Assembly: GCA_016930375.1 (NCBI GenBank) | Contig: JAFGGU010000060.1 | Location: 1-64,000 of the forward strand | DNA length: 64,000 nucleotides | Reading direction: 5' to 3' | From: Bacteroidales bacterium | GTDB lineage: Bacteria > Bacteroidota > Bacteroidia > Bacteroidales > UBA10428 | Shown here: positions 1,969-5,458 of the stretch, one piece after another | Layout of the letters: every line of letters starts with the position of its first letter | Numbering within the stretch: the stretch's first letter is position 1 | Translations under genes and position numbers: made by a program | Notes under the pieces: generated by a model | Database searches by the model: none | What the model was told of the DNA's origin: nothing | What the model saw: only the letters and a program-made list of their open reading frames with translations

Positions 1969-2850
1969 ATGTTATTCAGAATGAGCTCTAAAGATACATT
2001 ATTTTCAACAAAACAGACCATCAACTGCAGGGGCCGGGTGGTTGATTTTTCAAAACCCCGGATTATGGGAATCCTGAATGTGACTCCGGATTCTTTTTAT
2101 GACGGAGGCAGGTACCAGACGGAACAAGAAATCCTGAAGAGAGCCGAGGCGATTCTGAATGAAGGTGCCGATATCATTGATGTGGGTGCATATTCCTCAA
2201 GGCCCGGAGCAGTGGACATAACAGCTGAAAGGGAAAAGGAGCGCCTGGTTTTGGCGTTCAGCATTATCCGAAAGGTTTTTCCTGATGCGCTGCTTTCGGT
2301 GGACACTTTCAGGGCCGGGATTGCTGAGTTTATGGTAAATGAATTCGGTGTTTCCATGATCAATGATATCTCGGCAGGAATGATGGATGATCATATGCTG
2401 GTAACCCTGGGAAGGTTGAAAGTCCCTTACATCATGATGCACATGCAGGGAACACCGCAAAACATGCAGAAATACCCCAGATACGATGATGTCACCAGGG
2501 ATTTGCTTGCGTTCTTCACACAGCGCATAGCACTGGCAAGAGAGGCCGGTATTGAGGACATCATCATTGATCCGGGTTTTGGATTTGGTAAAACCCAGGA
2601 TCATAACTTTCTGCTCTTGCGTGAGCTTGATCTTTTTGGCATGCTGGATTGCGTCATCATGGTGGGATTATCACGTAAATCAATGATATACAAATCGTTG
2701 AACATTACTTCCGATCAGGCATTGAATGGTACCACCGTGTTGCATACCCTGGCACTGCAAAACGGGGCTAAGCTTTTAAGGGTGCATGACGTAAAAGAAG
2801 CCCTGGAGACCGTCAGGCTTTTTACATTATACAGGAATGCTTCTGCGTAA
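1969..2850 (+). CDS. folP: dihydropteroate synthase
   Basis: Condenses p-aminobenzoate with 6-hydroxymethyl-dihydropterin pyrophosphate in folate synthesis; this is the sulfonamide target. The 293-residue TIM-barrel protein carries the pterin-binding signature NVTPDSFYDGG at residues 37-47, DPGFGFGK near residue 202 and an SRKS loop near 235. Two starts are possible, ATG at 1969 or at 1981 (MSSKDTLF); the shorter one may be real because the upstream gap to tmk is very small. It lies next to tmk and cdaA, a neighbourhood common in Bacteroidota. folE, which acts earlier in pterin synthesis, lies far away at 58.8 kb. Confidence 0.95.
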   Translation: MLFRMSSKDTLFSTKQTINCRGRVVDFSKPRIMGILNVTPDSFYDGGRYQTEQEILKRAEAILNEGADIIDVGAYSSRPGAVDITAEREKERLVLAFSIIRKVFPDALLSVDTFRAGIAEFMVNEFGVSMINDISAGMMDDHMLVTLGRLKVPYIMMHMQGTPQNMQKYPRYDDVTRDLLAFFTQRIALAREAGIEDIIIDPGFGFGKTQDHNFLLLRELDLFGMLDCVIMVGLSRKSMIYKSLNITSDQALNGTTVLHTLALQNGAKLLRVHDVKEALETVRLFTLYRNASA

Positions 2851-4409: not shown

Positions 4410-4603
4410 GGTATTTATACCTATTTTATCGTAATGTAAAGAGTAATAATTTGTATTACAGAGCTTTATAAACCTGAACTCAAGGGTTAAAAAAGAGGAA
4501 TAAAAGATTTTAAACTTTCACGTCTTTTAAGGGATTACTTTTTTTTATTTCTGGTATTAAGTAAAAAATTGCCAGCAAATGCCAGGCTGTTGTCGATTAT
4601 TAA

Positions 4604-4831
4604 GCCACGAAGTGGCTAAATATGAATAACCGTGGGTGCAACCCACGGTATGTATGAAGACATAATGCAAGCAGCGAAGTGGCTAAATATGAATAACCGT
4701 GCGCGGTATGTATGAAGACATAATGCAAGCCACGAAGTGGCTAAATATGAATAACCGTGCGCGGTATGTATGAAGACATAATGCAAGCCACGAAGTGGCT
4801 AAATATGAATAACCGTGGGTGCAACCCACGG
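4604..4831 (+). repeat. REP-like palindrome array, left side of the RAYT island
   Basis: Four head-to-tail units start at 4604, 4671, 4729 and 4787. Each has a small hairpin (gccac-GAA-gtggc; the second unit is altered), the spacer aaatatgaataa and a second palindrome. In units 1 and 4 the second palindrome is the full 19-nt ccgtgggt-gca-acccacgg (4630-4648 and 4813-4831). In units 2 and 3 it is shortened to ccgtgcgcgg, a loss of 9 nt, which explains unit lengths of 67 against 58 nt. Another GAA-loop hairpin (ctcc-GAA-ggag) follows at 4855-4867, just before the transposase gene. The rest of the gene-free stretch 4410-4603 is AT-rich; I see no gene in it. Confidence 0.85.
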
Positions 4832-4886
4832 TAAGGATAAACTGTAACCCTTCAGCTCCGAAGGAGTTGAACTAAATAAAGTCAAC

Positions 4887-5333
4887 ATGTCAAGTTATCG
4901 TCAAATCCTTTACCACATCATTTTCCGCACCAAAGAAGGAAAGAATACCCTTATCCAAGGAAACATAAAAGAATTATACGCCTATATTCATGGCATCATC
5001 AAAAATAAAAACTGTATACTATACAGTATAAATGGCATGGAAGACCATATTCATTTTCTCTCTGATTTACACCCTTCAATTGCTTTAGCTGATTACATGC
5101 GCGATATAAAAGCTTCCACTTCATTTTGGATTAAGAAAGAAAACAAACTTCCCCATTTTGAGGGATGGGCAGAGGGATATGCAGCTCTAACTTATGCTTG
5201 GCGCGATAAGGAGATGATTAAACAATATATAATAGGTCAACAAGACCATCATAAAAAAGAGACATTCATGCTGGAATACAGAAGACTTTTGGAAGAACAT
5301 GGGATTATTATTGATGAACGGTTCTTCCCATAA
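4887..5333 (+). CDS. REP-associated tyrosine transposase (RAYT; IS200/TnpA-like Y1 HUH family)
   Basis: A 148-residue single-domain HUH nuclease that would cut and rejoin single-stranded DNA at hairpins. The metal-binding H-x-H is H54-I-H56 (EDHIHFL). The likely nucleophile is Y114 in KQYIIGQQDHH, with Q118 placed as in TnpA helix D. WAEGYAA before it matches the RAYT/Y1 pattern. The frame is intact from ATG to stop, so the enzyme may be active. The gene lies between palindromes in opposite orientation: GAA-loop hairpins and ccgtgggt palindromes on the left, and their reverse complements with TTC loops on the right (5340-5424). That arrangement is typical of RAYTs, which are thought to maintain REP elements. 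A standard IS200 element would lack this array. Confidence 0.9.
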   Translation: MSSYRQILYHIIFRTKEGKNTLIQGNIKELYAYIHGIIKNKNCILYSINGMEDHIHFLSDLHPSIALADYMRDIKASTSFWIKKENKLPHFEGWAEGYAALTYAWRDKEMIKQYIIGQQDHHKKETFMLEYRRLLEEHGIIIDERFFP

Positions 5334-5339
5334 GAAATT

Positions 5340-5424
5340 CGGCCCTTTCAGGGCCGAGATATCCGTTGTTCATTCACGTCCGTGGGTTGCACCCACGGTT
5401 ATTCATTTATAATCCCTTCGGGAT
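5340..5424 (-). repeat. REP-like palindromes, right side of the RAYT island (inverted)
   Basis: Three hairpins follow the transposase stop: ggccct-TTC-agggcc at about 5341-5355, the 19-nt palindrome ccgtgggttgcacccacgg at 5380-5398, and atccc-TTC-gggat at 5412-5424. The palindrome with its flank ttattcat (to 5406) is the exact reverse complement of the left-side atgaataa + palindrome. Loops read GAA on the left and TTC on the right, so the whole right side is inverted relative to the left. These hairpins also lie just 3' of pckA and could end its transcript. Confidence 0.82.
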
Positions 5425-5458
5425 AAATAATTGAAATAACGGTCTGTCGATTCTCGCA

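Follow-up and report, generated by a model that had tools for sequence, protein, structure and literature searches.

The locus analysed here poses the question of whether a short gene for a Y1/HUH enzyme and the palindromes crowded around it form a single element, and if so of which kind. Gene and palindromes lie in the window, a 64,000-nt stretch of DNA from a Bacteroidales bacterium, and their coordinates are collected in Table 1. A preliminary description had reported an intact enzyme of 148 residues with H54-x-H56 and Y114, and the open reading frame at 4887-5333 is indeed uninterrupted over 148 aa, matching Pfam Y1_Tnp with an E-value of 5.5e-23. The motif residues D53-H54-I-H56, W94 and Y114 were all found in the protein. 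H54, H56, W94 and Y114 were invariant in 27 relatives, as were the Y, the Q and both H of the Y-motif YIIGQQDHH, but D53 was not.

The palindromes around the gene were also as described, with four units on the left and the reverse complement on the right. Each left unit carries a small hairpin, the second copy being imperfect (AGCAGCGAAGTGGCT), and 12 nt past it the palindrome CCGTGGGTGCAACCCACGG, which is complete in units 1 and 4 and tip-deleted in the other two. One more small hairpin, the fifth, AGCTCC-GAA-GGAGTT, adjoins the ATG. The right side mirrors the left with GGCCCT-TTC-AGGGCC, the palindrome at 5380-5398 and ATCCC-TTC-GGGAT, and its module was matched by the module model at 5380-5425 on the minus strand (E 2.9e-14). 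Every small hairpin near the gene has a GAA loop on the left or a TTC loop on the right. The palindrome was observed three times in the window compared to an expectation of 0.15, a count reached in none of 100 shuffles. The layout in the window is one three-hairpin module with inverted copies on either side of the gene, and not merely a set of loose palindromes. In the two tip-deleted palindromes, at 4697-4706 and 4755-4764, an identical 9-nt stretch is missing from the hairpin tip (CCGTGCGCGG); it looks as though this tip had been excised once and the product then copied within the 58-bp repeat.

Table 1. Features of the gene and its flanking modules, with tandem arrays at two related loci.
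Feature	Position	Strand	Remarks
Small hairpin H1, unit 1	4603..4617	+	AGCCAC-GAA-GTGGCT
Spacer between H1 and H2, 12 nt	4618..4629	+	AAATATGAATAA; TAA end 18 nt past H1 loop
Large palindrome H2, unit 1	4630..4648	+	CCGTGGGT-GCA-ACCCACGG
Three 58-bp direct repeats	4646..4819	+	
H1 of units 2 and 3, inside the 58-bp repeats	4670-4684, 4728-4742	+	first copy imperfect
Tip-deleted palindromes of units 2 and 3, after H1	4697-4706, 4755-4764	+	CCGTGCGCGG
Unit 4, gene-proximal full module	4786..4831	+	H1 4786-4800, spacer, H2 4813-4831
Small hairpin H3, beside ATG	4853..4869	+	CAGCTCC-GAA-GGAGTTG
TnpA_Y1 (HUH, Y1) gene, 148 aa	4887..5333	+	H54-x-H56, W94, Y114, YIIGQQDHH; subclass 1.2-like
Small hairpin H3', directly past stop codon	5339..5357	-	TCGGCCCT-TTC-AGGGCCGA; GAA loop on minus strand
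Large palindrome H2' of inverted right module	5380..5398	-	
Small hairpin H1', outer end of right module	5412..5424	-	ATCCC-TTC-GGGAT
Tandem arrays beside gene, L167 (Mariniphaga MAG)	923-1448, 2109-2294		
Tandem array beside gene, L047	1966-2200		

Analysis of the flanks of ~30 orthologues in other genera of the order revealed the module order H1, a 12-nt spacer ending in AATAA or AATAG, H2, ~22 nt, H3 and the ATG, with the mirror image of the module past the stop codon. In the clade of the window protein, H1 is a small hairpin with a 3-nt loop, mostly GAA, and the 12-nt spacer ends in TGAATAA. Across H1 and H2 of the aligned modules 98.5% of cells were paired, with many double changes, and the varied stem pairs were Watson-Crick with hardly any G-U, in sequences chosen partly for pairing. 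Because of this choice, we relied instead on an independent test with a covariance model, R1 (46 nt, built from 21 sequences), which was applied to 80 named loci retrieved through the similarity of their proteins. Almost all of these loci are from Bacteroidota, and six overlap the training loci. Full-length sense matches lay at most 200 nt upstream at 65 of 78 loci and antisense matches lay downstream at 67 of 76, with both present at 58; without the six overlapping loci, the corresponding counts were 60/72, 61/70 and 53. The module occurred in the wrong orientation alone at only 2+2 loci. The commonest distance from the stop codon to the downstream module at these 80 loci was 52 nt, and module density dropped from 5.3 to 0.04 per kb moving away from the gene. 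An Rfam search with the hairpins returned sub-threshold chance matches only, with no family reaching threshold. Tandem arrays of the module (~70-bp period) or of the palindrome only (~23-bp period) were also seen beside the gene (Table 1).

Comparison of these modules distinguished the features that are kept from those that vary. Anchoring the count on the end of the spacer, and not on the loop itself, yielded 94 distinct H1 hairpins from 63 loci, of which 68 had a GAA loop and 88 an A as third loop base, compared to 9% GAA loops in background hairpins; the same hairpins had 34 different 5-bp stems. The letters of the stem change with compensation, and loop, spacer and spacing stay. The earlier proposal that what persists is the loop and the geometry, and not the stem, is supported by these hairpins, but the loop is not the sole kept feature: TGAATAA in the spacer is conserved just as strictly, as are the distances, and the 12-nt spacer with its TAA or TAG end is at least as constant. 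The loop may, as was also proposed, serve as a guide or cleavage feature.

The protein tree resolved two main clades, with the window protein in clade A. Clade A hairpins are followed by the spacer TGAATAA and the large palindrome, and those of the sister clade B are single and small, followed by ATTATGGTAG, with loops that are mainly GTA, so that GAA itself is no universal rule. Hairpin and spacer type required only two changes on the protein tree compared to a mean of 14 after shuffling, and none of 500 shuffles did as well. In 36 hairpins of clade A and 42 of clade B, a TA[AG] end lies exactly 18 nt past the 3-nt loop, and TA[AG] ending at neighbouring positions was found mostly in 1-9 hairpins, the exception being 15 clade A hairpins at 17 nt. 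This constant spacing between loop and TA[AG] suggests a ruler for recognition or cleavage. Among the candidate features that the enzyme may read, the shared 18-nt ruler stands first, ahead of the letters GAA alone.

The modules are not confined to the gene. The window genome contains 38 hairpin-spacer-palindrome core modules at E<2e-7, including nine gene-less inverted pairs with modules 150-157 bp apart, and 25 of 27 checked modules lie outside ORFs, although the DNA next to them is 86% coding, bearing out the claim that the palindromes are dispersed and mostly intergenic. The palindromes had further been expected to go with the gene, and within the family of the window genome (23 genomes) at least seven modules were found in 4/4 carriers of the close gene versus 1/19 genomes without it. 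The palindromes are thus neither unique to this locus nor, at family level, equally common where the gene is missing. At the level of the order (295 genomes), modules were present in 39 of 43 genomes with the close gene, in 61 of 114 with only the sister, more distant gene and in 22 of 138 with none. One congener lacks the close gene yet has 29 modules, and ~35 genomes of the order have at least five modules and no close gene. The sister genes in module-rich genomes of this kind were unflanked by the clade A module where checked, except at one locus in G035, and no other Y1 gene was found within 1.5 kb of sampled modules in gene-poor genomes. Modules without the close gene may reflect gene loss, incomplete MAGs or mobilisation by something else.

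To which family the enzyme belongs was decided by sequence and fold. The preliminary description had called it a RAYT, but the protein scored 24.1 bits against the NCBIfam RAYT model NF047646 (cut-off 80) and 67.8 bits against the NCBIfam IS200/IS605 model (cut-off 55), thus failing the former and passing the latter. Its Y motif is Y...Q..HH and not the Y..NP (Y-I/V-x-x-N-P) of RAYTs, and the RAYT hairpin foot GT[AG]G is absent here, the foot of H2 in clade A being AATAA or AATAG. RAYTs are active as monomers and cut their REPs strand-specifically. RAYT is the wrong family name here, although the arrangement is RAYT-like. In an AlphaFold2 model (pLDDT 89), the nearest fold neighbours were the ISDra2 and IS608 transposases (VIA Z 12-13; ISDra2 13.0), and the fold of RAYT 4er8 was more distant (VIA Z 10.2), so that by both sequence and fold the nearest relatives are IS200/IS605 enzymes. 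Cleavage 3' of and beyond the hairpin in IS200/IS605 provides a fair analogy for the window system, but here the ends are mirror-image modules, the gene is mostly single copy and gene-less copies far outnumber it. The subclass 1.1 members of IS200/IS605 also differ in having several near-identical copies, whereas the window gene is single copy in its own genome.

Among published groups, the closest match is subclass 1.2 of TnpA_Y1, whose members average ~148 aa, have low copy number, occur in Bacteroidetes and Cyanobacteria and share D/N-H-[VIL]-H and Y---Q--HH motifs (Quentin et al. 2018; PMC6006769). The window protein resembles them in length, DHIH, W94, Y...Q..HH, low copy number and occurrence in Bacteroidota. 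Subclass 1.2 was published with no REP listed and generally without IS200 hairpins (PMC6006769), whereas the window gene is flanked by inverted three-hairpin modules that also have dispersed copies. The published absence of REPs is a search result and not a defining property of the subclass, and the clade of the window protein, within subclass 1.2, does have REP-like hairpins. Class 3 TnpA_Y1, found in Planctomycetes, Acidobacteria and Proteobacteria, with a foot CnGA, ~178 aa and Y----Q without HH, likewise combines a class 1-like Y motif with REP-like flanks and dispersed copies (PMC6006769). The RAYT/TnpA_REP enzymes of class 2 share with the window a single-copy HUH-Y1 gene, inverted palindromes and many intergenic copies (PMC2817692, PMC3116915), and the gene-less inverted pairs of the window genome (150-157 bp) resemble REPINs (PMC3116915). 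Distinct from RAYTs are the three-hairpin module with its 18-nt ruler from loop to TA[AG] and, in clade B, a GTAG that sits 3' of the hairpin at +18 and not at its 5' foot. The RAYT of S. maltophilia requires one particular base of the loop but tolerates changes in the stem (PMC8266576). We found no earlier report of such repeats in the accessible literature that was searched.

Comparison with relatives also provided information on mobility. The distance between plsY and pckA is ~90-200 bp in three congeners (76-80% identity) versus ~1.1 kb in the window. From this comparison, the gene unit would have arrived by insertion or have been lost multiple times elsewhere, and insertion needs fewer events; the intergenic DNA of the congeners is too diverged, and G247 copies and several in the window genome are too deeply set in larger repeats, to place the exact insertion point or a target-site duplication, and no target-site logic emerged. 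The congener G247 has two gene copies with 89% aa identity, and on the left the two resemble each other only as far out as the outer small hairpin. The two copies in G192 (L340 and L341, 96% aa) have the left module in common and right palindromes that are unrelated but identical in layout and spacing, indicating that module ends have been exchanged and the architecture kept. G195 has two copies with 95% aa identity; in all, a few genomes apart from that of the window have 2-3 copies at 76-96%. Nearly all relatives of the window protein are from Bacteroidota; no match was found in the plasmids or viral contigs searched, and a phage search gave weak matches of 28-30% only. The window genome itself has one copy of the gene and one Y1 paralogue with 36% identity. 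The flanks of this paralogue (L017; G000:C11:1874-2296) hold another module that is comparable in layout and consists of GGCCT-GTA-AGGCC, a stretch of 12 nt (GCTGCGTAAAAG) and then CACAGGGC-GCA-GCCCTGTG.

We propose, with a probability of roughly 0.7, that the locus is a REPtron-like element centred on a subclass 1.2 TnpA_Y1, with the modules as its substrate and the gene-less pairs as a REPIN-like non-autonomous form. The enzyme would bind the single-stranded module through the small hairpin, its 3-nt loop ending in A and the TA[AG] 18 nt 3' of the loop, probably reading the loop and the geometry and not the sequence of the stem. Judging from right-end geometry in IS200/IS605 elements, Y114 would probably nick and rejoin near the conserved TAA or TAG. 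The gene unit would comprise module, gene and inverted module, mostly in single copy, and the gene-less inverted pairs of ~200 bp would spread as the non-autonomous form, mobilised in trans. We lean slightly towards a broader proposal, that subclass 1.2 constitutes a separate Bacteroidota REP system defined by the loop with its last base A and the 18-nt TA[AG] ruler, with nearly free stems and a clade-specific spacer.

The resemblance of the protein to IS200/IS605 transposases in sequence and fold would be expected of a plain insertion sequence with unusual inverted ends, in which a 640-bp unit moves and the gene-less pairs are deleted MITEs, with no REP-like domestication. Duplication of whole units within genomes (96% aa in G192, 95% in G195 and 89% in G247) and the empty site in congeners agree with this view. 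It is nonetheless unlikely, given a single gene copy in the window genome against ~38 modules, the only other Y1 gene being 36% identical, and given right ends that were swapped for unrelated palindromes in the same layout; moreover, the ends of IS608-type elements are not inverted repeats, whereas those seen here are.

Two further explanations would leave the enzyme without a part in dispersal. The hairpins lie near the ATG and the stop codon and are intergenic, as RNA or regulatory elements such as terminators or attenuators spreading passively would be, and the Rfam result, with no family at threshold, may be listed on the same side. Such a role without the enzyme is very improbable in view of ~38 copies away from the gene, inverted pairs at constant spacing, a module presence that tracks the gene within the family, a spacer type that tracks the protein clade and varied pairs that are Watson-Crick with hardly any G-U, albeit in sequences pre-chosen for pairing. 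Slightly less probable still is carriage by another mobile element, either the larger repeats flanked by TGATGCRTTAA or the CGTC-type repeats, which would make the dispersal only apparent. Several pairs in the window genome do have common flanks beyond the module, and eleven copies in G247 belong, for the most part, to a larger composite that ends in CGTCATTGCGAG, but flanks are unrelated at many other copies, and dozens of unrelated genomes have modules bracketing the gene at a fixed distance.

The locus looks like a REP/transposase system of a type not recognised before, REPtron- and REPIN-like and operated by an enzyme of class 1. A gap in the literature is filled, in that a widespread, domesticated-looking subclass without a known substrate gains a candidate substrate with exact coordinates and a testable recognition rule. 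The system also suggests an origin of REP partnerships among class 1 (IS200-like) enzymes, separate from that in class 2 RAYTs. With stems that differ and a loop and ruler that do not, the modules amount to a natural SELEX experiment on recognition by the enzyme, and the two protein clades with their two spacer types, TGAATAA and ATTATGGTAG, provide a swap test.

Larger repeats enclose some of the module pairs. In the window genome, the gene-less pairs L053, L056, L058, L062, L063, L066 and L068 lie inside a larger repeat and have flanks in common, with a TGATGCRTTAA-like sequence at both outer ends of the repeat, which may be a separate MITE that has captured modules. Copies embedded in this manner may have spread along with the larger repeats. 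In G247, eleven module-pair copies (L107-L117) have common flanks, most of them within a larger composite that ends in CGTCATTGCGAG and CGACGAAGCAATCTGCC and resembles CGTC-type REPs.
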